From Candidatus Uhrbacteria bacterium RIFOXYB12_FULL_58_10 (lineage in GTDB: Bacteria; Patescibacteriota; Patescibacteriia; UBA9934; GWF2-40-263), in NCBI GenBank assembly GCA_001791645.1, contig MGFA01000017.1, forward strand, positions 27,937 to 66,052: a DNA stretch of 38,116 bases, read 5' to 3'. Position numbers and translations under genes: made by a program. Shown in pieces: positions 909-34,405 of this stretch. Numbering within the stretch: the first letter of the stretch is position 1; every line of letters begins with the position of its first letter. The notes beneath the pieces are model-generated. The model was not told the origin of the DNA, searched no databases, and worked only from the letters and a program-made list of their open reading frames with translations.

Positions 909-2642
909 TTATGTTCCTTCGCCGGCAACGCGCAACACTTCATCCACCGTCGTCAGGCCGTCGAGACATTTGAGCATCCCGTCCTGCTGCATGGTGGTCA
1001 TGCCTTGCGTTTTCGCGAGTTGGCGCACTTGATATTCGTCGATCTTTTCGGAGAGGGCAGATCTGATTTCGTCCGTCATAAGCAGAATCTCGTAGATACC
1101 GACGCGTCCCTTGTATCCAGAATGGTTGCATGCCTCGCATCCCTTGCCATTGTAGAACTTCCATTCCGTGGGAGGGGCGACCGTTTCGCCGGATGCCGGC
1201 GGGACGTCGAGAAGAATTTTTTTTACGCGTTCGGCCGTTTCCGCGTCGAGGACGATCTCTTCCCTGCAGTCCTGATGAATCTTGCGCGTGAGGCGTTGCC
1301 CGATAATGGCATTGAGCGCCGGAGCGAGCAAGAACGGCTTTACGCCCATGGAAATGAAACGGGGAAGCGCGCCGGCCGCGTCATTGGTATGCAGGGTGGA
1401 AAGCATCAGGTGGCCGGTGAGCGCGGCGTTGATGGACGTCTCGGCCGTTTCGAGGTCGCGAATTTCGCCTACCATCACGATGTCCGGATCCTGACGAAGG
1501 ACAGAGCGCAGCCCGGACGCGAAGGTATATTGCTTCGAGTGGTCGATTTGCGATTGATTGACTCCCTCAAGTTTGTATTCGATCGGATCCTCGAGCGTGA
1601 TGATCTTTACGTCCGGAGAGTTCAAGCGGCGCAGGACCGCGTACAACGTGGTCGTTTTTCCGGAACCGGTCGGACCCGTGGTAATGATCATCCCGTGCGG
1701 CTTGTCGATTTCATGGACCAGCTTTTTTTCCGCGACTGGACGCAGCCCAAGGCTCGCGAATTCCACGGCAATGGAGCCAGGCCGCAGGATGCGCATGACC
1801 ACGGATTCCCCCCAGTTCGTCGGAATCGTCGATACACGCACGTCCGTGTCGCCGTCTTTGAGAAAGATAGTGAATCGACCGTCCTGTGGGCGGTCGGTGA
1901 TGTTGATCTTCAGTCCGCTGATCAGCTTGATGCGTGAGACGATGCGCTTCCAGAAGTCATGCGGAAGTTCGGCAACGTCCTGGAGCACGCCGTCCACGCG
2001 GAAGCTGATCCCCACCCGATGTTCCTCCGCCTCGACGTGGACGTCGGAGGTGTTGAACTGGATGGCCGCGGCCATGACAATGGTCATGATGTCCGTGACG
2101 GACGCGTTGTTGAGCACGCGTTGGATGTCCGCGAAGGTCTTGAGCTCGCTCTTGAACCGGTTGAGCTCGTCGTCCGTCACTTTCACGCCCTTCACGATCA
2201 GCTTGATCTTCGGGAGCACGTCGTACATTTTGATGGCGACGCGCAGGGATTCTTCCGAAATTTTGTACACGCCGCCGTTGCCCTGAAGGCGTTCCGCGAT
2301 CTGAAAGACAAGCTCCTTGATTTTCGGGTCGTCCGGATTGACGGCGCCAAGTCGAAATTCAGACCCGCTGTAGAGAAAACAGACGGTTTTGAGTTCCTCG
2401 GCCTGTTCCTTTGGAATCTGACTGATGGCTTCCGGATTGATCGGGAACCCCTTCAGGCTCACATACTGGATTCCGGAGGCGGCGGCCTGGCGCTTCGTTT
2501 CGTCTTCGAGCTCGCGCAAGCGTACCTCCTTCATTTTTTCTTCGAATTTTTCCTGGACCGTCGCGTCCGGGCCGTTGGATGGCGTCTTTCCGGCAGAGCC
2601 GGATTGGATGAGGTCCTCGATGGATTGGGTAAGCTTTGCCAT
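909..2642 (-). CDS. pilB: PilB/GspE-type ATPase, first paralogue
   Basis: 577 aa, the usual length for type IV pilus assembly ATPases. An N-terminal region (about 50-150) resembles a degenerate MshEN/N1 domain. The core has 'NTSDVHVE' (about 197-204), Walker A GPTGSGKT (323-330), 'TLEDPIEY' (349-356), Walker B 'DPDIVMVGEIRD' (385-396) and the His box 'GHLMLSTLHTND' (410-421). The zinc module is unusual: the first CxxC is H456-x-x-C459, while the second is the normal C502-x-x-C505. It would power pilus polymerisation at the inner face of the membrane. It is not in the pilus cluster at 20069-25760, which has its own PilB, and is instead paired with a TrmB regulator. A -10 box (TATACT on the minus strand, 2652-2657) ends 9 nt before the ATG. 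Confidence 0.93.
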   Translation of the reverse strand: MAKLTQSIEDLIQSGSAGKTPSNGPDATVQEKFEEKMKEVRLRELEDETKRQAAASGIQYVSLKGFPINPEAISQIPKEQAEELKTVCFLYSGSEFRLGAVNPDDPKIKELVFQIAERLQGNGGVYKISEESLRVAIKMYDVLPKIKLIVKGVKVTDDELNRFKSELKTFADIQRVLNNASVTDIMTIVMAAAIQFNTSDVHVEAEEHRVGISFRVDGVLQDVAELPHDFWKRIVSRIKLISGLKINITDRPQDGRFTIFLKDGDTDVRVSTIPTNWGESVVMRILRPGSIAVEFASLGLRPVAEKKLVHEIDKPHGMIITTGPTGSGKTTTLYAVLRRLNSPDVKIITLEDPIEYKLEGVNQSQIDHSKQYTFASGLRSVLRQDPDIVMVGEIRDLETAETSINAALTGHLMLSTLHTNDAAGALPRFISMGVKPFLLAPALNAIIGQRLTRKIHQDCREEIVLDAETAERVKKILLDVPPASGETVAPPTEWKFYNGKGCEACNHSGYKGRVGIYEILLMTDEIRSALSEKIDEYQVRQLAKTQGMTTMQQDGMLKCLDGLTTVDEVLRVAGEGT

Positions 2643-5610: not shown

Positions 5611-5783
5611 ATTTTTAATTCTTTGCGTCCTCAGTGCATATTTGGGGTCGGGTGTACGAGCCGACACAATGTCAGTTTTTCAAAGCATCCAGCTGATTTG
5701 TTCGAAGAGTTGTGGTTATTTCCCAGAATAACTAACAAAATCGCGTGGGCTTAACACGTAATTTGTCCTCTCTAACAAATCAT

Positions 5784-7625
5784 ATGAGACATACGAGTTG
5801 GTCTTTAGCAAGGGGAGTCTCTTTCATATTTGTCTTTAGTTTCGTCGGGATACTTGGGACGCTGGCGCCAACCGCACGGGCGGCCACGTTTCCGCCTCTC
5901 GGTGCCGCTGCAAGTTTCTCCGTACTTGCGAACACGGCAATCACGAGTGTTCCAACCTCTGTGATTTCCGGAGACGTAGGACTGAATGCCGCTGGGACGA
6001 ATTACGCGGGGCTTACCTCCGCCGAAGTTGCCGGAACGATTTATGACACGGCCGGGACCGGGCCGGATGGCGCCGCCGCGATTATTTCACCAAACGTACA
6101 GGCGAACGTTCTGACGGCGCATGGAAATATCATGGGACAGAGTTCGGACGGGAGCATCGGCCCCGCCCTTGACGGACTGGTTGTCACCCCGGGTGTGTAT
6201 GACATTGGGGCCGGGAGGCTTACTGGCGGTATTCTCACCCTGGACGGGGATGGTGTTTATATCTTTCGGGCATCAAGTGATTTCGTGACTTCCGGTTCGC
6301 TTAACTTAATCAATGGCGCGACCGCATGTAACGTTTTTTGGGACGTTGATACGCTCGCAACGATCAATGGCAGCTCGTTTGTCGGGACGATCATTGCCGG
6401 AACAGGCATTCATTTCGGTTCTGACGTGTCCTTGGACGGCCGTGCGCTCGCTCGCGGCGGCGATGTGACAATGATCAGTGACACGATCAGCGGTCCGTCC
6501 TGCGCGGCCCCTGTTTCTTCGGGCGGCAACACGAATTATTACTCAGGAACGATTACCGTCGTAAAAACGATCGTGAATGACAATGGCGGTAATAAGGATA
6601 TTGAGGATTTTTCGCTTTTTATCAATGGAATTTCAGTTGTTTCTGGAATACCAAACGCGTATGTCTTCTATAACAATGCTATTCCATATACGGTGAGCGA
6701 GACCGCAGATCCGGCATACGCGGCAACCTTTTCCGGAGACTGTGATTCGAGCGGACGTCTGTATCTGAGTCCGGCCCAAAACGCTTTCTGTTTCATTACA
6801 AACGACGACATCGGGACTCCCGTAGTCGTCCCTCCTGTTCCTCCGCTCATCGATGTCGTGAAGGTGCCGAGTCCTCTGGCGTTACCGGACGGGCCAGGGT
6901 CGGTAAAATACACATATACGCTCCGAAACGTTGGGGTGGTTTCGGTGGCCGACATCACGATGGTTGGAGATTCCTGCGAGCCTATCCAATTCGATTCTGG
7001 TGATACGAATGGGGATAACATGCTTCAAACAAGCGAAACCTGGGTGTACGATTGCACGACTACGCTCTCGGAAACGCATACAAATACCGTTGTAGCGACT
7101 GGATGGGCGAATGGATTGAGTGCCGTTGACGTGGCTAGCGCCACGGTCGTGGTAGGTATTCCCGACGTCGTTCCTCCGTTGATCCATGTGACAAAAACCC
7201 CCTCTTCGCTGACGCTGCCGGCCGGAGGCGGCTCTGTGACTTATACGGAAACCGTGACCAATCCCGGGATCGTCCCATTGCGCAGTATCGTTCTTTCTGA
7301 TGATAAGTGCGGGCCGATGCAGTTCGAATTTGGCGATGCAAACAGCAACTCTCTGCTTGAACCGGAGGAGAGTTGGGTCTATTCGTGCGACGTGGGCTTA
7401 TTGAAGACAACGACCAACGTCGCAAGCGTGAGCGGCGAGGCAAACGGCTATACGGTGCGTGACTTTGCAATGGCGACCGTCGTTGTAGCATCGGCCGTCC
7501 CCGCGTTGCCGAACACAGGCGTCATTCCGATGGAAAATGCACTCGTCGCATTTCTCGGCGCGGCTGCCGGTGCATTCGTGGCAACGCTTCTCATTCGCCT
7601 TGCGGGCAAGAGACGCAACCGGTAA
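5784..7625 (+). CDS. LPNTG-anchored DUF3494 (ice-binding-like) surface protein
   Basis: 613 aa from the ATG at 5784, which gives a clean signal peptide (1-33, ending 'TARA'). An in-frame GTG at 5745 would add 13 residues, and neither start has a Shine-Dalgarno. Residues about 36-243 are a DUF3494 domain: 'LGAAASFSVLANTAITSV', 'VISGDVG', 'GDGVYIFRASSDFVTSGS', 'ACNVFWDVD', 'GTIIAGTGI' and 'GRALARGGDVTM'. In characterised members this beta-solenoid binds ice. A beta-sandwich follows (about 255-350), then two DUF11-like repeats (about 355-565), each with a Ca-loop-like 'GDxNxDxxL'-type segment. The C-terminus is a textbook sortase signal: LPNTG (575-579), a hydrophobic helix and KRRNR. The sortase gene follows 11 bp later. 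Ice binding is inferred from the family; adhesion is an alternative role. Confidence 0.92.
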   Translation: MRHTSWSLARGVSFIFVFSFVGILGTLAPTARAATFPPLGAAASFSVLANTAITSVPTSVISGDVGLNAAGTNYAGLTSAEVAGTIYDTAGTGPDGAAAIISPNVQANVLTAHGNIMGQSSDGSIGPALDGLVVTPGVYDIGAGRLTGGILTLDGDGVYIFRASSDFVTSGSLNLINGATACNVFWDVDTLATINGSSFVGTIIAGTGIHFGSDVSLDGRALARGGDVTMISDTISGPSCAAPVSSGGNTNYYSGTITVVKTIVNDNGGNKDIEDFSLFINGISVVSGIPNAYVFYNNAIPYTVSETADPAYAATFSGDCDSSGRLYLSPAQNAFCFITNDDIGTPVVVPPVPPLIDVVKVPSPLALPDGPGSVKYTYTLRNVGVVSVADITMVGDSCEPIQFDSGDTNGDNMLQTSETWVYDCTTTLSETHTNTVVATGWANGLSAVDVASATVVVGIPDVVPPLIHVTKTPSSLTLPAGGGSVTYTETVTNPGIVPLRSIVLSDDKCGPMQFEFGDANSNSLLEPEESWVYSCDVGLLKTTTNVASVSGEANGYTVRDFAMATVVVASAVPALPNTGVIPMENALVAFLGAAAGAFVATLLIRLAGKRRNR

Positions 7626-7636
7626 TTAGCGAATCT

Positions 7637-8329
7637 GTGTTTAGGGCTCATAACCTGATATTCGCGATGGCGGTAATCGTGCTGGGAATCGCCGTCGCGT
7701 ATGTGTCTTTCCTCATTCGATTTGAATCGAACACGTCGCCCGAAATCGCCCGAGTGACCGCGGATGCGGATGCGTGGAGGATCGTTCTGGCATCTTCGTC
7801 CGCGGCCGGCCCCGCGGATTCCCCAGGTATCGGATCGTCTGAAGTTCGAGGATCATCTTCGACCAATGAGGTATTGCCAGACGGAACACCCGTGCGGATA
7901 AAAATTTTAGCCATCCACGTAAACGCGGCCGTGCAACGGGTTGCCTTGGCGGAGGATGGCTCCATGGGAGTCCCGGCACTCCCAACCGATGTCGCGTGGT
8001 ACTCCCTCGGCCCCAAGCCGGGTCAGATCGGAAGCGCGGTGCTCGCCGGACACGTTGACTGGTATGGCGGAGTGACCGGGGTATTCGCAGATCTGGACAC
8101 CCTGGCACCAGGTGACACGGTCGTGATTCTGGACGACTACGGATCCGAGATCTCGTTCGTCGTCCGCGAGGTCCGCGCGTATGGATCTGGTGACGATGCC
8201 ACGGACGTCTTTGTGTCCACAGACGGCGTGGCTCATCTTAACTTGGTGACGTGCACGGGGATATGGGACCGGGATGCCGGGCAATATACGAAACGTTTGG
8301 TCGTGTTTTCCGATAGGGTTACCGAGTAA
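7637..8329 (+). CDS. Sortase (class E/F-like)
   Basis: 230 aa from a GTG start; an ATG at 7667 is possible but would shorten the membrane anchor. An N-terminal helix (about 8-28) anchors the enzyme outside the membrane, and a Ser/Ala-rich linker leads to the sortase domain (about 80-230). The catalytic triad is visible: His139 in 'LAGHVDW', Cys206 in 'LNLVTCTG' and Arg220 in 'YTKRLVVFSD'. Sortases cleave LPxTG-type signals and join the Thr to a cell-surface nucleophile. The gene lies 11 bp behind the LPNTG protein and nothing else follows before the terminator at 8357, so it is a dedicated enzyme-substrate pair. The class (E or F rather than A) is judged from the short core and motif context and is less sure. 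Confidence 0.93.
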   Translation: MFRAHNLIFAMAVIVLGIAVAYVSFLIRFESNTSPEIARVTADADAWRIVLASSSAAGPADSPGIGSSEVRGSSSTNEVLPDGTPVRIKILAIHVNAAVQRVALAEDGSMGVPALPTDVAWYSLGPKPGQIGSAVLAGHVDWYGGVTGVFADLDTLAPGDTVVILDDYGSEISFVVREVRAYGSGDDATDVFVSTDGVAHLNLVTCTGIWDRDAGQYTKRLVVFSDRVTE

Positions 8330-19040: not shown

Positions 19041-20072
19041 ATGTCCATGTCCTCGCTGTTAAGGGCCGCCGTCGCGGAAGGCGCTTCCGATCTTCATCTG
19101 GCCGACGGGCATCCACCCACGCATCGCATTGACGGCGCGCTGCGGTCCACGGACGCCCGTGCGCTGACCGGATCCGCAATTGAGACCCTGGTGCGCGAGA
19201 TCGTCTCTGACCGACAGTGGAAGATATTTCAGGAAAAGCTCGAATTGGATTTCGGATACGAAGAGGGGGGATATCGTTTTCGGTTCAACGTTCATGTCGA
19301 GCGCGGGAATGTCGCGGTCGCGGCCCGACTGATTCCGCTTGCGATCCCTTCGTTCAAGGACATTGGTTTGCCGGAAAGCGTCGTGGACCTCGCTCGTTCG
19401 CCCCACGGGCTGGTGCTCGTGACCGGTCCGTCCGGCGCGGGAAAATCAACCACGCTTGCCTCGTTGCTCGCCGACATCAACGCGCACGACGCCGTCCATA
19501 TTCTGACGCTCGAGGATCCGATCGAATTCGTCTTTCCGAACGCCAAGGGGCTCGTGAAGCAGCGCGAGGTCGGGTCGGACACGCTGTCGTTCGCGGAGGG
19601 GTTGCGTCACGCGTTGTGCCAGGATCCGGACGTGATTATGGTTGGTGAAATGCGAGACCCGGAAACGATCGCCGCGGCGCTGACCCTCGCGGAGACGGGG
19701 CATCTCGTTTTTTCGACGCTGCACACGAATTCGGCCGCCCAGGCGGTACATCGCATTGTTGATTCGTTCGCGGAACACCGGCAGGACCAGGTACGCGCCC
19801 AGCTTGCGTTGACGCTGCGCGGCGTGGTGGCACAGGTGTTACTGCCGCGCGTAAAGGGAAGCCGTGTTGCCGCGCGTGAGATTCTGATGAATACGCCGGC
19901 GTGCGCGAACCTGATCCGAGAAAACAAGGTCGAACAAATACCGACCGTCATTCAAACGGGACGGTCGGAGGGAATGGTTTCGCTTGAGTCGGCGATTACG
20001 GAACTCGTGAAAGCAAAACAGGTGAGAGAGGAGGATGCCGTGGCATATCTGCCGACGCGCCGCCGGCGCTAG
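19041..20072 (+). CDS. pilT: Type IV pilus retraction ATPase PilT
   Basis: 343 aa, the usual PilT length. Features: 'GASDLHLADGHPP' near the N-terminus, Walker A GPSGAGKST (about 132-140), the Asp box 'LTLEDPIEFVF', Walker B 'QDPDVIMVGEMRDPETI' and the His box 'TGHLVFSTLHTNSA'. It lacks the CxxC zinc module of PilB, as expected for PilT. It depolymerises pili, which powers twitching and uptake. It lies 19 bp after rnc on the plus strand and runs tail to tail into the pilus cluster. The two stop codons overlap in the palindrome CTAG (20069-20072), leaving no room for a terminator. Confidence 0.96.
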   Translation: MSMSSLLRAAVAEGASDLHLADGHPPTHRIDGALRSTDARALTGSAIETLVREIVSDRQWKIFQEKLELDFGYEEGGYRFRFNVHVERGNVAVAARLIPLAIPSFKDIGLPESVVDLARSPHGLVLVTGPSGAGKSTTLASLLADINAHDAVHILTLEDPIEFVFPNAKGLVKQREVGSDTLSFAEGLRHALCQDPDVIMVGEMRDPETIAAALTLAETGHLVFSTLHTNSAAQAVHRIVDSFAEHRQDQVRAQLALTLRGVVAQVLLPRVKGSRVAAREILMNTPACANLIRENKVEQIPTVIQTGRSEGMVSLESAITELVKAKQVREEDAVAYLPTRRRR

Positions 20073-20461
20073 AAGTCGACCACGTGCGACCACGACGTCA
20101 CGTGAACGGTTTCCAGGTCGTCCAGTTCAATTTTGATCCGATAGGGGTGACCGTCAACGGTCGCCTCTGTTTGTATCGTGGTGACGGCCCCGGACAGCAC
20201 CGGACGGACAGCGCACGTTTCCGTCCCGATCGCGATTGATTCATTTCCAGCGTACGCGGGATCCTCACGAAGGCTCTGGAGCGCCGTTTCCGCGCATCCT
20301 TCCGCGAGTCGTTGCGCGTCTTCCCGTTGCCGCGCCTCGGTTCCCTGGCCCAATTGGTTTGCGAGCCGGAGTGACGTCGCGGCCGCGGTGAGAATAATGA
20401 CAACGCAAAATACGAGTACCGTGCCAACGATGGCGAATCCGCGCGGGGGAATCTTATTCAT
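20069..20461 (-). CDS. Minor prepilin-like protein (PilX/GspK-like)
   Basis: 130 aa from the ATG at 20461 (MNKIPPRGFAIVG); a longer frame to 20491 is open, but this start puts the prepilin motif in place. Processing would occur between Gly8 and Phe9. The hydrophobic helix ('FAIVGTVLVFCVVIILTAAATS') lacks Glu at mature position 5, a feature of GspK/PilX-type tip pilins. Two cysteines (in 'AEGCAET' and 'ETCAVRP') may form a disulfide. It is the last gene of the pilus cluster and overlaps the preceding gene by 8 bp and pilT by 4 bp. A role at the pilus tip is inferred from family and position. Confidence 0.82.
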   Translation of the reverse strand: MNKIPPRGFAIVGTVLVFCVVIILTAAATSLRLANQLGQGTEARQREDAQRLAEGCAETALQSLREDPAYAGNESIAIGTETCAVRPVLSGAVTTIQTEATVDGHPYRIKIELDDLETVHVTSWSHVVDF

Positions 20462-20936
20462 ATCTGAGGGCAACGAATAATGTGAGGACATCGGAAATAG
20501 TTCTGGTTCCCGCGTTCACGGAAAGCGTTATAGACAGGTCGAGGCCCGGAGGAGAACCGGCCGTACGAGTGACCGTAAACTCATCGACCGAGACGCCCGG
20601 AGGGGTCAGGGGAGCGGGGGCTTGCGATATTGTGTCGAGATACAGAACGCCGTCGGTCACGAAAACGCTTACCGGTCCATCCGTTATCCCGTTGCCGTCG
20701 ATTTCCAACGTGGTCGCGGAACCAGAAGCCGGAGACGTGATTTGTCCGGCCGACTCAACGAGTTCCCGCAATTGCGACGTGACCATGTATCTCGTCTCGT
20801 TCAGATCTTGTTCGCGTCGTGCCAGCCGGTCCGTCGCAAGATTGTTCGCGTAGATGGAGGCAAGCGTTCCCATGGTGATCGCGAAAAGCGTCACGTACAG
20901 GAGGACTTCGACGAGTGTGAATCCGCTGCGCTTCAT
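20454..20936 (-). CDS. Minor prepilin (PilW/PulJ-like)
   Basis: 160 aa from the ATG at 20936; in-frame codons further upstream lie inside the preceding gene. The prepilin signal MKRSG-FTLVE is exact: cleavage after Gly5, Phe6 as the new N-terminus and Glu10 at mature position 5. The helix 'FTLVEVLLYVTLFAITMGTLASIYA' follows. The body is beta-rich and includes 'ATTLEIDGNGITDGPVSVFV', as in PilW/PulJ minor pilins. The gene begins 1 bp after the beta-propeller prepilin gene. These minor pilins prime assembly and stay near the tip. Confidence 0.9.
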   Translation of the reverse strand: MKRSGFTLVEVLLYVTLFAITMGTLASIYANNLATDRLARREQDLNETRYMVTSQLRELVESAGQITSPASGSATTLEIDGNGITDGPVSVFVTDGVLYLDTISQAPAPLTPPGVSVDEFTVTRTAGSPPGLDLSITLSVNAGTRTISDVLTLFVALRYE

Positions 20937-20937
20937 A

Positions 20938-22356
20938 TTATGGGGAAGAGGTAATAATGCGCAGCGCGTCATTGCTGCGAACCGCGGCAAACACCATGTT
21001 GGCCGCAAAATCAATTCCCGAAACGACCTGCGGGAAGTTCAAGGAGGAATATTCCGAAAGCGCATTTAAATCTGAAATGTCGAGCGCGATAAATTCTTTC
21101 GTGCTGCTGTCCGTCCCGGTAAACAGGAGATTGTTGCTCGTGCAAACCATGTCCTTGATTTCCGTCCCGGTCGCGACGGCGGCCGTGACGATTGGCGCCG
21201 TCGGATCCGCGACGTCAACCGTGACAAGCGCGTCTTCCTGACCAACGAAGAGCGTTCCCGGCTCGTTATAGGCGATACTCTTATTTTCCTCGCCGATGTC
21301 CGTTGCGCTCACCTGGATTGGAACGAGCGGATTTGTCACGTCGAAAATCGTGAGTCCTTCGGCGCTCGAATCCCCCGCCGCAAAGACATGCGTGGCGTTC
21401 GTGGCGAAGTCGTTGATGCTATCGTCCGTCTCAAACGTGGCCAGAAGGGAGGGGACAGTCGGATCCGTCACGTCGTAAAAGTAGATTTCGCTGTTCGTGG
21501 ACGACGATCGGCCGAGTACGGCTAAGGAACCTTTTACGATGACAGTCAGCCCGTCCGCGCTTCCCGTCGGATTCGTGTGGGCGACAAGGCTTGGACTGCG
21601 TGGATCGCTTACGTCGAATACCAGAAATTCCTGGTCGTCATTTGGAGATGCGGCGTACAGATAGTCGCCGGAAATAGATAACGTGTTCATGCCGCCCGCA
21701 CCGACGTCAACGGAGCTGACAAGCATGGGCGCGGTCGGGACGCTTACGTCGAATACGAACAGGTCGGGCTTTCCGGAGGAAGCGGCGACGCCACTGACAT
21801 ACGCGTACGGCAGGTTCACGACCACGTCCGTTCCCTGGTTTCCCGCGCCGATGTCCGCATTGCCGATGACGATCGGGTTCATCCAGTCGCCCGTGACCGT
21901 GTATCCGTAACAGTTGCTTGCGGCCGGGATCATTGGGGTGCGCCAGTTCGTGAGGCGAGTCGTCACCGCGCGTTCTTCCGTTCGACCGAGCCGGTTGGTC
22001 CACGTCACGGCGACCGTGACCTCGCGCGTCGCGTCGTCAATGGTCGTGATGTCCACGGATCTGTGGAACGCGTTGGTCACATCTTCGGAACCAGAAAATG
22101 TCCAGATACCGTCCGTTTCGGAGAGCCCGTGCGTTCCCGCGTCGAGATTGTCAAAAGACGTGTCGCGAATTTGGCGAACCGCTTCGAATCCGTTTGTCAG
22201 CAGATCTTCCGCCCGAGTGCGCTCGCTGGCCACAAGACCTTCCACGAACGTGGAGCTTAGCAGCACGAACGCGGCCGTGCTCATGGAGGCCAGGATGAAG
22301 ATGGCGATCAGGACCTCAATGACCGATTGTCCGCTCCGCGACGGTGAGAACGCCAT
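20938..22356 (-). CDS. Minor prepilin fused to an LVIVD-type beta-propeller
   Basis: 472 aa. A type IV prepilin N-terminus is present: MAFSPSRSG-QSVIEVLIAIFI, cleavage after Gly9 and Glu14 at mature position 5, as in PilV-type minor pilins. A pilin-like beta part (to about 145) follows, with 'EVTVAVTWTNRLGRTEERAVTTRLTNW' in pieces. Residues about 165-470 form six or seven repeats of the LVIVD kind, each with a strand ending in FDVSDPxxP-like sequence (for example 'LFVFDVSVPTAP', 'FLVFDVSDPRSP', 'IYFYDVTDPTVP', 'LTIFDVTNPLVP', 'LVTVDVADPTAP'). They should close into a beta-propeller. A large exposed propeller on a minor pilin suggests a tip adhesin or an analogue of PilY1. The start overlaps the previous gene by 41 bp. 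Confidence 0.92.
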   Translation of the reverse strand: MAFSPSRSGQSVIEVLIAIFILASMSTAAFVLLSSTFVEGLVASERTRAEDLLTNGFEAVRQIRDTSFDNLDAGTHGLSETDGIWTFSGSEDVTNAFHRSVDITTIDDATREVTVAVTWTNRLGRTEERAVTTRLTNWRTPMIPAASNCYGYTVTGDWMNPIVIGNADIGAGNQGTDVVVNLPYAYVSGVAASSGKPDLFVFDVSVPTAPMLVSSVDVGAGGMNTLSISGDYLYAASPNDDQEFLVFDVSDPRSPSLVAHTNPTGSADGLTVIVKGSLAVLGRSSSTNSEIYFYDVTDPTVPSLLATFETDDSINDFATNATHVFAAGDSSAEGLTIFDVTNPLVPIQVSATDIGEENKSIAYNEPGTLFVGQEDALVTVDVADPTAPIVTAAVATGTEIKDMVCTSNNLLFTGTDSSTKEFIALDISDLNALSEYSSLNFPQVVSGIDFAANMVFAAVRSNDALRIITSSP

Positions 22357-22771
22357 AGGGGGTCAGGGTGATATCAATGGCTAGCGAGTCGTTGTCAATG
22401 GAAAGCATGGTTTCTACGGACGGTCCCGTCGCTCCTTTTGGAATGGCAATCTCGCTCGTTTCCGGGACGGATATTTCCGAGGAAAGGTTCGTCGTTTTAT
22501 CGAGGGCTGGCGTACGACTGGCATAGGTGTCGCCGGAATAGCGCACAACCGAATCGGTGAGGACCTTGATCCCGTGCGCGGAATCGTCGGCTTGCGACCA
22601 GGCATCGATTTGCGCGCGTCGCAGCTCCGCGATGACGGTTTCACCGGCAGTTCGCAGGTATTGGTCGCGAAGGAAGGATCCCGAAAGGGTGGTGCCGAGC
22701 ATGACGAGAATGCCAAACAGTCCCAGCACGATGGTGACCTCTGCCAAGGTGAATCCGTTCCGTGAACGCAT
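22316..22771 (-). CDS. Minor prepilin (GspH/FimT-like)
   Basis: 151 aa from the ATG at 22771 (MRSRNGFTLAEVTIVLG); upstream in-frame codons overlap pilC. The prepilin signal is clear: cleavage after Gly6, Phe7 new N-terminus, Glu11 at mature position 5. The globular part is beta-rich with 'ETVIAELRRAQIDAWSQADDS', typical of GspH/FimT pseudopilins. It begins 1 bp after pilC and overlaps the propeller gene by 41 bp, so translation of the two may be coupled. It probably belongs to the initiating tip complex of the pilus. Confidence 0.88.
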   Translation of the reverse strand: MRSRNGFTLAEVTIVLGLFGILVMLGTTLSGSFLRDQYLRTAGETVIAELRRAQIDAWSQADDSAHGIKVLTDSVVRYSGDTYASRTPALDKTTNLSSEISVPETSEIAIPKGATGPSVETMLSIDNDSLAIDITLTPYGVLTVAERTIGH

Positions 22772-22772
22772 A

Positions 22773-23876
22773 CTATGTGTGGATTCCGGTGGTGAGCGAG
22801 TAAATCGGGGTAATGATGGCAATGGCGATGAACCCGACGAATCCCCCGACGACGAGTAGCAACAGCGGCTCAAGCACCGTGGTAAGCGTTTTTGTCGCGT
22901 CGTCGATTTCCGTTTGCGCGAAATCGGAGATGAACAGGAACGAGTCGTCGAGCTTGCCCGTCTCCTCGCCGATGGCAATCATCTGCGTCACGAAGCCGGG
23001 GAACAGACCGCGGTGCTTCGCGAGATAATGGGAAATGTCCTCGCCTTCCTGAATGGAGTCCGCGACCGCGAAGTACCAGTGACGGTAGACGGCGTTGCCC
23101 GCGCTTGCGGCTGCAATTTTTAACGCGTCAATGATGGTGACGCCGGCCTTGAGCAGCGTGCCAGCGACGCTCGACATCTGGGCGATTTCGATTTTTTTAA
23201 TTAACGGGCCCAAAACCGGGATGCGCAAGGCAACCCAGTCTATGGCGTAGCGAGTAGGCTGGATGTGCCGCAAGGTGATCCACGCGCCGATGAGGGCGAC
23301 GATTCCCGCAATGACCCACGGCCATTCGTTCGTGAGGAATACGGATCCGTTCAGCACCACGCGCGTCGTCCAGGGGAGATCGATATTGAGAGAAATGAAT
23401 AGAGGGGCGAGTTGCGGGAGCAATACCAGCACCAGATAGGCCGCGGTCGCGAGCGTGCCGGAAACGACGATCAGCGGATACAAGGTCGCCCCGCGAATTT
23501 TTGCCTGAAGCTCGCGCGTCTTCCCAATGTGGTCGGCAAGACGGAACATGGATTCCGCGAGCGTGCCGGATTCCTCGCCCACGGTTACCATGTTGATGAA
23601 CAGATTGTCGAACAGTCTCGGAAATTTTTTGAGAGAGGAAGAAAGAAACTCACCCGAAGCCACATCGGTCAGCACGATGTGCAGCACCGCATGCAGGGAA
23701 GACGAACGGGATTGGTTGTGGATGGCCACGAGGCTCCGATCAAGCGGGATCCCGGCCTGCAGCATGACGCCAAGGTACTTCGCGAAGAACATTTTTTCCT
23801 TGCTCGAAAGGAGCAGGAATCGGCTGGCCTTCGCCTTCGTCCAGGCGGACGCGTCGTCTTTTTTCTTTTGGAACAT
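22773..23876 (-). CDS. pilC: Type IV pilus platform protein PilC
   Basis: 367 aa. The two homologous T2SSF halves are visible: 'FFAKYLGVMLQAGIPLDRSLVAI' (about 30-52) with 'FLSSSLKKFPRLFDNLFINMVTVGEESGTL', and 'QMSSVAGTLLKAGVTIIDALKIAAASAGN' with 'FPGFVTQMIAIGEETGKLDDSF'. There are three or four transmembrane helices, including a C-terminal 'PLLLLVVGGFVGFIAIAIITPIYSL'. PilC is the inner-membrane platform that couples the PilB motor to the growing pilus. It follows pilB by 2 bp and precedes the minor prepilin genes by 1 bp. Confidence 0.97.
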   Translation of the reverse strand: MFQKKKDDASAWTKAKASRFLLLSSKEKMFFAKYLGVMLQAGIPLDRSLVAIHNQSRSSSLHAVLHIVLTDVASGEFLSSSLKKFPRLFDNLFINMVTVGEESGTLAESMFRLADHIGKTRELQAKIRGATLYPLIVVSGTLATAAYLVLVLLPQLAPLFISLNIDLPWTTRVVLNGSVFLTNEWPWVIAGIVALIGAWITLRHIQPTRYAIDWVALRIPVLGPLIKKIEIAQMSSVAGTLLKAGVTIIDALKIAAASAGNAVYRHWYFAVADSIQEGEDISHYLAKHRGLFPGFVTQMIAIGEETGKLDDSFLFISDFAQTEIDDATKTLTTVLEPLLLLVVGGFVGFIAIAIITPIYSLTTGIHT

Positions 23877-23878
23877 AC

Positions 23879-25177
23879 TTAGCTGTGGATCACCCGAAGC
23901 ACCTCGGCAACGGACGTGATGCCCGCCGAGGCCTTTCGAAGCCCGTCCATGAGCATCGTGGTCATTCCTTCCTCGATCGCGGCCTTTCGGATTTCGTCCG
24001 CAGTTTCGCGCTTCATGATCATATGACGAATCCGCTCGGTCATTTCGAGCACCTCATAAACGCCGATGCGTCCCTGATATCCTGCCTCATTGCACGCGTC
24101 ACATCCCTTTGGTTCCGCGAAGTCCTTGAATTGGCGGATAAAGCCCTGCGGCAACAGGTGTTGGAGGCTTTCCTGCTCGACGTCCGAGAGCTTTCTCGTG
24201 GTTACGCATTTTTGGCAGAGTTTTCGGACCAGTCGCTGACCGATCGCAACGTTGACCGTGGAAGCGATCAAAAACGGCTCAATGCCCATGTCCAGGAGAC
24301 GCGGAAGCGTGACGGCCGCGTCATTCGTGTGAAGCGTGGAAAGCAGGAGGTGTCCGGTCATGGCGGCGTTGACCGCGATGCCAGCGGTTTCCTCGTCGCG
24401 GATCTCGCCGACCATGATCACGTTCGGGTCCTGGCGCACGATGGAACGAAGCCCCTGGGCGAACGTAAGGTTTGTTTGCGGGTTTACCTGGATCTGCGTC
24501 ATTCCGGCGATGGTGTATTCGATTGGATCCTCGATGGTGATGATGGAAATGTCCCGCTTGTTGAGCTGTTGGAGCGCCGAGTAGAGCGTGGTCGTTTTTC
24601 CGGAGCCGGTCGGGCCCGTCGCAAGGAGCATGCCGTACGATTTGACCAGGTTGCGTTGGACGCGTTCCAGGTCGACCTGTTCCATGCCGAGTTCTTCCAT
24701 TTCAATGGCGCGTGCCTGTCCAACGAGCAGACGCATGACCACGTTTTCGCCGTGATACGTCGGAACAATTGAAACGCGCACGTCGACTGGCAGTCCGTCG
24801 AACATTAGTCGAAACCGTCCGTCCTGGGCAGCCATATGCTCGTCCGTCCTCATTTCCGAGAGAACCTTGATACGAGTCAAGGTCGTGATGAGCATCTTTT
24901 TCGGGAGGACGAGCACGTCGTACAGGATCCCGTCGATTCGGTAGCGTACGGTCATCACGCTTTCGCCCGGGTCAATATGGACGTCGGACGTACGGGAGAG
25001 ATACGCGAATTTGATGATACCGTCGACGAGATCTCGAACGGACGCGGTTTCGAGCTTCTTGATTTCTCGAAGGGAAGGGATCTTTTGCGACTCGCGGGTT
25101 CCCTTGACGAGCATATCCTCAAACTTTTCCATCCCTTTTTTATTTTTTTCTGGCGGCAGTTTTATTTTGGATGGCAT
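23879..25177 (-). CDS. pilB: Type IV pilus assembly ATPase PilB, N-terminally short
   Basis: 432 aa, about 130 shorter than usual PilB because the N1/MshEN domain is missing. The core is complete: 'TSDVHIDPGESVMTVRYRIDG', Walker A GPTGSGKT (about 182-189), 'TIEDPIEYTI', Walker B 'QDPNVIMVGEIRDEETA', His box 'TGHLLLSTLHTNDAA', and both zinc CxxC pairs ('KLCQKC' and 'CDACNEAGY'). This contrasts with the HxxC variant in the other paralogue at 909-2642. It drives polymerisation of pili. As first gene of the minus-strand pilus operon it has a TATACT -10 box (25199-25204, minus strand) in the region shared with the divergent prepilin gene. Confidence 0.96.
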   Translation of the reverse strand: MPSKIKLPPEKNKKGMEKFEDMLVKGTRESQKIPSLREIKKLETASVRDLVDGIIKFAYLSRTSDVHIDPGESVMTVRYRIDGILYDVLVLPKKMLITTLTRIKVLSEMRTDEHMAAQDGRFRLMFDGLPVDVRVSIVPTYHGENVVMRLLVGQARAIEMEELGMEQVDLERVQRNLVKSYGMLLATGPTGSGKTTTLYSALQQLNKRDISIITIEDPIEYTIAGMTQIQVNPQTNLTFAQGLRSIVRQDPNVIMVGEIRDEETAGIAVNAAMTGHLLLSTLHTNDAAVTLPRLLDMGIEPFLIASTVNVAIGQRLVRKLCQKCVTTRKLSDVEQESLQHLLPQGFIRQFKDFAEPKGCDACNEAGYQGRIGVYEVLEMTERIRHMIMKRETADEIRKAAIEEGMTTMLMDGLRKASAGITSVAEVLRVIHS

Positions 25178-25289: not shown

Positions 25290-25760
25290 ATGTTCGTGAA
25301 GAACGTTAAGGGGTTTACACTCCTTGAAATGCTCATCGTGATGGCCCTCATTGCCATCTTGGTCGGCATCGTCGTCGCCGTATTGAATCCGGCGCGCCAA
25401 TTCGCGCTCGCCCGTAACTCAACGCGTTATTCGCACCTGAATACCGTCATGAACGGGATTAGTGCCAACATGGCCGAGAACAGCGGTGTGTTTACCTGCG
25501 CGACCGGCGCGCTGCCGGCCGTGGCAACCAGCATGGCACCGGATGACGGCGACGCGGGTACCAGCGAATACGATATTGCCCCGTGCCTTGTTACGGAGTA
25601 TCTCTCCTCGCTTCCGTATGACCCTTCGGCCACGGGCGCCGGCTGGACCTCCGAGGCCGTCTATCTCACCGGTTATACGATTTCGCAGGACGCTGACGGC
25701 CGCATTACGGTCGCAGCCCCGTCCGCGGAACTTTCCGAAACCATCGCGCTGACACGATAA
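25290..25760 (+). CDS. Type IV prepilin, probable major pilin
   Basis: 156 aa. The prepilin signal is MFVKNVKG-FTLLEMLIVMALIAIL: cleavage after Gly8, Glu13 at mature position 5. The long hydrophobic helix continues to about 34 and is followed by 'LNPARQFALARNSTRYSHLNTVMNGI', an alpha-1C segment typical of major pilins and pseudopilins. Two cysteines ('FTCATG' and 'APCLVTEYL') could bridge the D-region-like loop. A 43-nt leader and single-gene unit with its own promoter and terminator fit high expression of a major subunit. It sits divergent from pilB, and no other major-type pilin gene is in the window. Major versus minor status is inferred. Confidence 0.9.
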   Translation: MFVKNVKGFTLLEMLIVMALIAILVGIVVAVLNPARQFALARNSTRYSHLNTVMNGISANMAENSGVFTCATGALPAVATSMAPDDGDAGTSEYDIAPCLVTEYLSSLPYDPSATGAGWTSEAVYLTGYTISQDADGRITVAAPSAELSETIALTR

Positions 25761-32698: not shown

Positions 32699-34405
32699 CT
32701 AGTAGGAGATGGTCGGTCCCATGAGCGGGAGTACCCGGAGAAGATGGGCGTTGATGTTGGACGCGCCCGCGTCGGTATCGTCCCAGAGGATCGCCTGGTG
32801 ACGGACGGCGCGCGCTTCTGCGTCGCTTAGCAGGTCGAACCGGACCGAGTCATCGTCCGCCGCGCTCGCCCCCGTTGTGTCGACGTGCAGGCTGAGGGTG
32901 GACGTGACCCCCGCCGGAACGTCGGTCGGTCCTGTGGTGGCATCGGCTCCGAGGTTCAGTACCGCGTAGGCCACTGGCTCGGCGGCCTGCCCGCAGGCAC
33001 TGCCGTCGGCCTTCAGGAGCGACCAGTCGCCCTTGTCGCTGATCGGCGCGGAGAGATCGTCCATGTCGTACAGGTTCCACAGGTCATTGGCGCCGAACCG
33101 CTTAGTGGACGCGCCGTCGCCACAGTCGTTCCATCCGGTTCCAGCGTTGTCCGTGGTCGTGACTCTGAACATGAGCTGGTTGACGGTGACGTCGCCGAAC
33201 GAGGACGACGCGACGTTGAAGCGCAGCGCCTCGGCCCGTCCTGGGACGCCCGTCCCGGAAGGTGATGCGGACGACAGGGAGAAGCTCGGCTCGCTTAGGC
33301 GAATGATCATCAGGCGTCCAGAGACACTGGCCGCGACGTCGGTTTCGTCGACGCTGTTGCCCGAGGTCACGCCGATCGCGGAGAAGGAACCGGAGTCCAG
33401 GGCGTTCAAGGTGAAGCGGAGGGTGTCGCCCGAGGCAGCGCCGTACGAGCCGACGGCGACGATGTCCACGGTGAGCGTCACCGCGGTGACGTCGCCCGCG
33501 CGGGCGTAGCACTCGGCGCCTTCGAACGAGACGTGTCCGGCGATGACGGACGCCGTATCCGTATAGCCGGATCCGCCCTCGTCGGTACAAAGAATGGACG
33601 CGGCGCCGGCGCCGGTCGCCGATCCGAGATCGTCGAACGAGAGGGTCTCGACGAGGAAGTCCTCGCCACGCGCGTCGAATTCCCAGCGCCCAACCTCGTT
33701 GCCGGTCGTGGAGCCCAGAAGAATGTCGCTCGCCGTCATGTCCGGGGCCGGGCGAAGGACGAGACGTCCGTTCTCCTGCACCCTGGTGGAGATGGTGCCC
33801 GTATCGTTCAGCGTATCAGCTCGGCCGATTTGGAGCGTGGCTCCGGACAGCGTCGTGCCGCCGATGGTCGCGGTTACGGATGACTCGCCCGCGAGCGCGG
33901 CGGCGAACCGGTCCGGATCGTCGGACAGCGTGCCGTCGTTGCTCAAATCGCACCGGATGACATACGTCGTCGCGGTCGCGGCCGCGACCGTGAACGAGTC
34001 GGAGAAGGTGAGGGTCTCGGCGGACACGGGCTCCGGCCCGGCGATCACCGTGCCGGCCGCGTCTTCGAGCCGGCATTCCATGAAGCGGTCCTCGGCGTTC
34101 GCATCGCGGTCGATCGTCGCGAAGTCCGCATCGTCGTCCCCGAACACGGAAAAGCTCATCTCGTCGATCGTCGCGTCGCCGCCGCGCGGCTGGAGGTCGA
34201 ATGAGAGCAGCGCGGCGTCCTCGCTGCCGGCCACCGTCTCGACGTTGAGCGGCTGGTGCGGGGTGAGGCGCACGAGCAGCGCGGGGGAGCGCATGGACAT
34301 CATCGCGAGTCCGGCCGCGGCCGCGAGCCCGGCGCCCGCGAGCAGCGCGACGCCAACGACGGTCGTCGTGCTCGTCCGCATTTTTGTCTGAATCTTTTTT
34401 GCCAT
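32699..34405 (-). CDS. Large exported surface protein, uncharacterised
   Basis: 568 aa. A signal or anchor helix ('TTTVVGVALLAGAGLAAAAGLAMM', about 13-36, quoted in part) follows a short basic start. The rest is acidic, Ser/Thr/Asp/Ala-rich and beta-strand-rich, with repeated stretches of 'ATIDEMSFSVFGDDDADF', 'TYVIRCDLSNDG' and 'VTLTVDIVAVG' that suggest several immunoglobulin-like domains. Cysteines are few and paired (for example 'MECRL' with 'IRCDL'). Such proteins are common surface or S-layer-like proteins in CPR. No sortase signal ends it, so anchoring would be through the N-terminal helix. -10 TATACT lies about 23 nt upstream of the ATG. Confidence 0.83.
   Translation of the reverse strand: MAKKIQTKMRTSTTTVVGVALLAGAGLAAAAGLAMMSMRSPALLVRLTPHQPLNVETVAGSEDAALLSFDLQPRGGDATIDEMSFSVFGDDDADFATIDRDANAEDRFMECRLEDAAGTVIAGPEPVSAETLTFSDSFTVAAATATTYVIRCDLSNDGTLSDDPDRFAAALAGESSVTATIGGTTLSGATLQIGRADTLNDTGTISTRVQENGRLVLRPAPDMTASDILLGSTTGNEVGRWEFDARGEDFLVETLSFDDLGSATGAGAASILCTDEGGSGYTDTASVIAGHVSFEGAECYARAGDVTAVTLTVDIVAVGSYGAASGDTLRFTLNALDSGSFSAIGVTSGNSVDETDVAASVSGRLMIIRLSEPSFSLSSASPSGTGVPGRAEALRFNVASSSFGDVTVNQLMFRVTTTDNAGTGWNDCGDGASTKRFGANDLWNLYDMDDLSAPISDKGDWSLLKADGSACGQAAEPVAYAVLNLGADATTGPTDVPAGVTSTLSLHVDTTGASAADDDSVRFDLLSDAEARAVRHQAILWDDTDAGASNINAHLLRVLPLMGPTISY

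Follow-up and report, generated by a model that had tools for sequence, protein, structure and literature searches.

A minor pilin carrying an LVIVD beta-propeller in a conserved operon slot of Patescibacteria, a candidate pilus-tip binding module

Adhesive modular pilins have been described in Streptococcus sanguinis, whose PilB and PilC are modelled at the pilus tip (PMC8179133, PMC9934059). A 2021 InterPro survey recorded a Falkowbacteria pilin of 860 residues in which IPR013211, there a motif of unknown function (PMC8179133), occurs 12 times; this entry corresponds to LVIVD (PMC10210494). TM7x cells bind their host less well when the propeller pilin PilX2 is deleted (PMC12206443). Monoderms are stated to lack PilY1 (PMC9934059), and pilY1-annotated transcripts have been reported in ultra-small groundwater organisms (PMC9938205), an annotation that the PF05567 domain search performed here did not reproduce. 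We analyzed a 38,116-nucleotide stretch (the window) of the ultrasmall Patescibacterium Candidatus Uhrbacteria bacterium RIFOXYB12_FULL_58_10, whose genome (1.12 Mb, 28 contigs, estimated to be 100% complete) belongs to an Uhrbacteria family. In the reading that we favor as reasonably probable, a gene in this window encodes a modular minor pilin of the GspI/PilV type whose propeller is exposed at the pilus tip and attaches to the surface of a partner.

The gene lies at positions 20938-22356 on the minus strand, starts with ATG and encodes 472 amino acids, the stop codon being included in the coordinates. Its N-terminus, MAFSPSRSG/QSVIE, contains a cleavage site after Gly9 and Glu14 at position +5, in agreement with the standard prepilin N-terminus of the original prediction and with the class III signal peptide that characterizes modular type IV pilins. 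The PF07963 N_methyl score is near the cut-off of 21.2 bits, reaching 16.9 bits by hmmscan and 21.1-21.7 bits for the pilin with its neighbors in the genome search. On the same strand, the leader peptide (residues 1-9; 22330-22356) is followed by the N-terminal pilin helix (residues 10-66; 22159-22329), a GspI-like beta-sheet head (residues 67-140; 21937-22158), a linker (residues 141-161, with low confidence at 138-146; 21874-21936) and the seven-bladed LVIVD propeller (residues 162-472 plus stop; 20938-21873; PDB WD40 matches at Z of about 34). The LVIVD search proposed earlier placed the protein in PF08309 with 42.5 bits (E 3.9e-11; cut-off 20.2), and this is the single LVIVD match in the genome. 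The propeller represents an extra C-terminal domain that is not pilus-specific, as in other modular pilins. It contains five D-V-[STA]-x-P motifs and a degenerate sixth (DISDLNAL), spaced by about 45 residues, and a conserved GDW..P motif lies just ahead of it in the linker. The six or seven repeats anticipated at the outset thus correspond to six repeats in sequence and seven blades in the model.

The propeller is highly acidic, with a net charge of -31 (9 Lys and Arg, 40 Asp and Glu) and a pI of 4.1, and its net charge is negative in all 24 proteins examined. This composition makes DNA binding by the propeller unlikely. It stands against a role of the propeller in transformation as a receptor that captures DNA for uptake, the function put forward for ComZ, a modular pilin of Thermus. 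Pili and competence are often paired and the genome encodes ComEC (PF03772, E 6.8e-46), but we regard this role as quite improbable.

In the AlphaFold2 model of the whole protein (pLDDT 84), built from only 12 sequences, a helix spans residues 12-66, the pilin sheet covers residues 74-136, and a weak linker leads to the propeller; the arrangement of head and propeller is of low certainty (pTM 0.68). The 28 strands of the propeller, grouped by hand, make up seven four-stranded blades, the seventh of which is closed by strand 162-167. VIA-align superimposes the propeller on WD40 propellers with a Z of 34.8 and an rmsd of 2.1 over 292 residues, and WD40 scaffolds constitute the bulk of its structural matches. 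This score, together with full-length orthologues at 43-52% identity in three family genomes, indicates that the resemblance is not due to chance, and the predicted fold is the beta-propeller that had been expected from the repeats. Sequence homology of the propeller to a solved propeller was considered and rejected, the hits having E-values of 0.004 and weaker. Modelled alone, the head reached a pLDDT of 86. Its four best solved matches by VIA-align are chain F of the XcpV-XcpW complex (91 residues, taken as XcpV from its size), EpsI, GspI and EpsI, with modest Z of 8.5-7.9 and rmsd of 2.2-2.7 over 70-79 residues against the GspI-type chains. These matches support a GspI-like head, short of proof; the likeness comes from VIA-align re-ranking, Foldseek with the head alone giving no match at E ≤ 0.001.

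The gene order is pilB-pilC-fimT-[modular pilin]-pilJ-pilX, in which the modular pilin is the second of four minor pilins, and the predicted link to other minor pilins is evident. The minus-strand operon comprises the assembly ATPase gene pilB (23879-25177; PF00437), the platform protein gene pilC (22773-23876; PF00482; the only PilC match in the genome), a FimT/GspH-like minor pilin gene (22316-22771) that overlaps the modular pilin gene by 41 nt, a third minor pilin gene at the PilJ/PilW/GspJ position (20454-20936), and a fourth at the PilX/GspK position (20069-20491), whose product contains GFAIVG and lacks Glu at +5. The same 41-nt overlap is found in two other genomes of the family (G023 and G016). 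A divergent plus-strand pilin gene (25290-25760; PF07963, 33.6 bits) is the probable major pilin gene pilA, and a convergent pilT-like ATPase gene (19041-20072, plus strand; PF00437) abuts the end of pilX. A prepilin peptidase was found in the genome.

Position and fold together suggest the identity of the carrier. Gene order here and in relatives places it second in an H-I-J-K series, in which the H and K assignments rest on weak model scores (the GspH model matches FimT below its cut-off, and the GspK model gives 16.7 bits on the fourth minor pilin, also below cut-off). The modular pilin shares this operon position and its closest solved folds with GspI/PilV minor (pseudo)pilins, but GspI has no large C-terminal domain, and the curated models gspI (TIGR01707) and PilV (TIGR02523) were not reached at E ≤ 0.1; the gspJ model scored 14.5 bits, far below its cut-off. 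The carrier looks GspI-like by position and fold, and is no filed member of that family. Because the head is GspI-like and the genes follow the H-I-J-K order, the pilus-tip position proposed for this protein is plausible, by analogy with the HIJK complex, which is located at the tip (PMC9934059).

GspH/I/J/K-like pilins would also suit a type II-like secretion system whose pseudopilus bears an enzymatic propeller, and the best Foldseek match of the propeller is a propeller phosphotriesterase. Given that a PilT-like ATPase adjoins the operon, that the propeller contains only two His residues and hence no obvious metal site, and that WD40 scaffolds prevail among the matches, such a pseudopilus is very improbable.

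Other genes of the window encode a second PilB-like ATPase (909-2642, minus strand; 577 aa; PF00437), located well away from the one pilC detected in the genome, and an exported-looking protein of 568 aa with no Pfam match (32699-34405, minus strand). The region at 5745-8329 (plus strand) encodes an Ice-binding-like domain (PF11999, 107 bits) together with DUF7507 and an LPXTG-type anchor that scores near the threshold, with a sortase gene at 7637-8329 following the Ice-binding-like domain protein. This protein near the pilus locus is possibly a second, sortase-anchored surface protein.

The original prediction regarded the fusion as a possible one-polypeptide counterpart of PilY1, to be checked for replacement of pilY1 in related genomes. 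PF05567 had no match in the cluster or elsewhere in the source genome, and none in the 287 sampled Patescibacteria; among the positive controls, an Aeromonas record was matched at E 1.2e-10, while a Burkholderia record and the built-in controls were silent. Since the pilT-like gene ends against pilX, the operon leaves no room for pilY1, and no further gene lies between them. PDB sequence matches of the modular pilin at E ≤ 1 included no PilY1 entries. The counterpart idea therefore holds in that a propeller is borne by a pilin in a genome where PilY1 was not found. Its evolutionary part, replacement of pilY1 by the modular pilin, found no support, as no lineage in this sample was seen to have lost pilY1.

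Full-length orthologues occur in three other genomes of the family, with identities of 52% (G023), 48% (G005) and 43% (G016). More distant orthologues at 28-41% were found by an alignment-based search in Harrisonbacteria, Brennerbacteria, Colwellbacteria and further genomes of Parcubacteria-like type. An alignment of 12 members was compared with PF08309, and every one of them matches the family. The order pilB-pilC-fimT-[slot]-pilJ-pilX is conserved in relatives and across the phylum, and the slot holds LVIVD propellers in distant Patescibacteria families. LVIVD is present in 60 of the 287 sampled genomes. Among 20 LVIVD ORFs of 427-660 aa from across Patescibacteria, 19 are housed in the pil minor-pilin operon, and the exception (L080) is a fusion to a PilX_N pilin. 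A class III-like N-terminus was seen in 18 of the 20, in one case with Asp at +5; another ORF of this set (L088) is cut by a contig end. The association with the pilin operon is strong for this smaller class, which was selected by length. A pilin N-terminus was seen in only one (L140) of 20 LVIVD ORFs over 900 aa, several of which are cut by contig ends, and the notion that every LVIVD protein is a pilin was rejected on this count.

Within the family and order, the slot contains either one LVIVD propeller or an LVIVD protein of about 945 aa, probably with two propellers. In two genomes of the same genus as the window (G001 and G002), it holds a 581-aa protein. Pfam gave no assignment for the passenger of this protein (L048) or for the extra domain of an approximately 290-aa slot protein (L052), the latter sitting in an apparent second operon type. 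One slot pilin of 1547 aa (L051:2790-7433, minus strand; G043) contains YCF48/BNR-type repeats in place of LVIVD. In G047, the slot gene is split into overlapping frames, pilin head then propeller (L046:6730-8116, plus strand), which may reflect a frameshift, a sequencing error or a real split. In G340, a PilX_N pilin (PF14341) that is not encoded in the pilB-pilC operon bears an LVIVD propeller (L080:3631-5187, plus strand), and the same genome also has a slot-type LVIVD pilin (L079). Tentatively, the I subunit of the patescibacterial pilus-tip complex may be a general socket, in which the machinery is inherited and the recognition modules on this subunit are swapped. If so, the slot gene would encode partner recognition, and genome-by-genome reading of the slot could predict attachment specificity.

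Identities to the three family orthologues (G023, G005 and G016) are 53%, 50% and 43% for the propeller, 38%, 34% and 37% for FimT, and 35%, 34% and 29% for PilJ. Against Harrisonbacteria (L063), the values are 42% for the propeller, 33% for the head, 21% for FimT and 25% for PilJ. The propeller is better conserved than the neighboring minor pilins, which disfavors the diversifying selection suggested for it earlier, as judged from identity profiles of orthologues that are only 43-52% identical. The same-genus genome G004 differs: compared with the window, PilB is 68%, PilC 53% and the head 44% identical, whereas its propeller is shorter and only 24% identical. The PilB tree groups the window with G004 (support 95/90), while the propeller tree places G004 outside. 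Constraining G004 to group with the propellers of the family carries a cost of 16.6 log units (AU p 0.03), in a test where G004 forms a long branch and the tested group was picked after the identities had been seen. The G004 propeller has been either replaced or strongly diverged.

Conservation within the propeller is concentrated on one face. The conserved top-face elements include the loop and strand start DIGAGNQGT (residues 168-176; 21829-21855) and the loops NFPQV (residues 440-444; 21025-21039) and RSNDA (residues 460-464; 20965-20979), all on the minus strand. Across the top-face loops (D-A and B-C), conservation peaks at blade 7 and declines smoothly to blades 4-5. The first-harmonic amplitude of this face, 0.40, was reached by none of 5000 shuffles, whereas that of the bottom face was reached by 1449 of 5000; the strands vary little. 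Loop faces were assigned by the WD40 convention and not from coordinates, and by this convention the linker enters the other face, from which we infer that the conserved patch would point away from the pilin. A blade-closure constraint was rejected as the cause of the patch, since the strand gradient is much weaker and strand 162-167 is not conserved. The patch could also be an interface with PilJ and PilX instead of a ligand site.

A strongly conserved face is also compatible with a priming and capping module, in which the propeller would do the assembly job of PilY1 by stabilizing the minor-pilin priming complex, with ligand binding secondary or absent. In Myxococcus, assembly is primed by PilY1 together with minor pilins, according to work cited in PMC12206443, and the lack of a PilY1 match here fits. 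However, slot passengers are very different from one another (LVIVD of one or two lengths, YCF48/BNR and domains without assignment), and a shared assembly role would not easily tolerate the divergence of the G004 propeller relative to its PilB and head. We consider this explanation unlikely.

High conservation of the propeller is unlike that expected for an arms race with variable hosts, and in this respect argues against binding of a partner cell. It fits better with a conserved self or polymer ligand, as when the propeller makes cells of the Patescibacterium aggregate or attach to abiotic surfaces, roles that the same architecture and location would serve. Since the Patescibacteria in culture live as episymbionts and use their pili for contact with the host (PMC12206443), we view self-recognition or surface attachment as rather improbable.

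In the favored reading, partner binding at the tip, the prepilin peptidase would cut the modular pilin after Gly9, and the GspI-like head would join the neighboring H, J and K-like pilins to form the priming and capping complex of the type IV pilus. The short linker would display the propeller at the tip, where the one-sided top-face patch (loops 168-176, 192-198, 440-444 and 460-464) may bind a ligand, most likely on the surface of a partner cell, and PilT-driven retraction would then pull the bound cell in. Here tip location, ligand and retraction are as we infer them, and adhesion is suggested by analogy with S. sanguinis PilB/PilC and TM7x PilX2 (PMC8179133, PMC9934059, PMC12206443). The conserved slot would provide a specific, cloneable candidate binding module for uncultivated Patescibacteria, together with a conserved face to mutate.

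Modular pilins, one of them with 12 LVIVD copies, and a propeller pilin aiding host binding in TM7x were already known. New elements, as far as we could search, are the GspI-like identity of the carrier, its constant slot throughout the phylum, the conservation of one propeller face and the discordance seen in G004; we found no paper combining "LVIVD" and "pilin". LVIVD-like repeats on surface proteins with differing anchors are also typical of the Choice-of-anchor B family (TIGR04312), but the modular pilin scores 27.6 bits against a cut-off of 100 and falls outside it. PilC/PilY1 (PF05567) is likewise a pilus-tip adhesin with a propeller and a role in priming, but it does not belong to the pilins and enters the minor-pilin complex as a protein of its own, whereas the protein described here is itself a prepilin and has no PF05567 match. 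PilX2 of Nanosynbacter lyticus TM7x is also a minor pilin of a Patescibacterium and has a seven-bladed propeller at its C-terminus; that propeller is of the RCC1 type, no PilD signal peptide is predicted, and the pilin cluster lies away from pilB2/pilC2 (PMC12206443), in contrast to the LVIVD propeller, canonical signal and location inside the pilB-pilC operon observed here. Like PilB and PilC, modular type IV pilins of S. sanguinis, the protein combines an N-terminal pilin module with a C-terminal functional module, the passenger being a vWA or lectin domain there and a seven-bladed LVIVD propeller here. The I-like subunit of S. sanguinis, PilA, has no such module, which is borne by its partner PilC, while in the present locus the I-like subunit itself looks like the carrier. 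This comparison extends the modular-pilin idea: the effector domain can sit on the I subunit itself where PilY1 is lacking.
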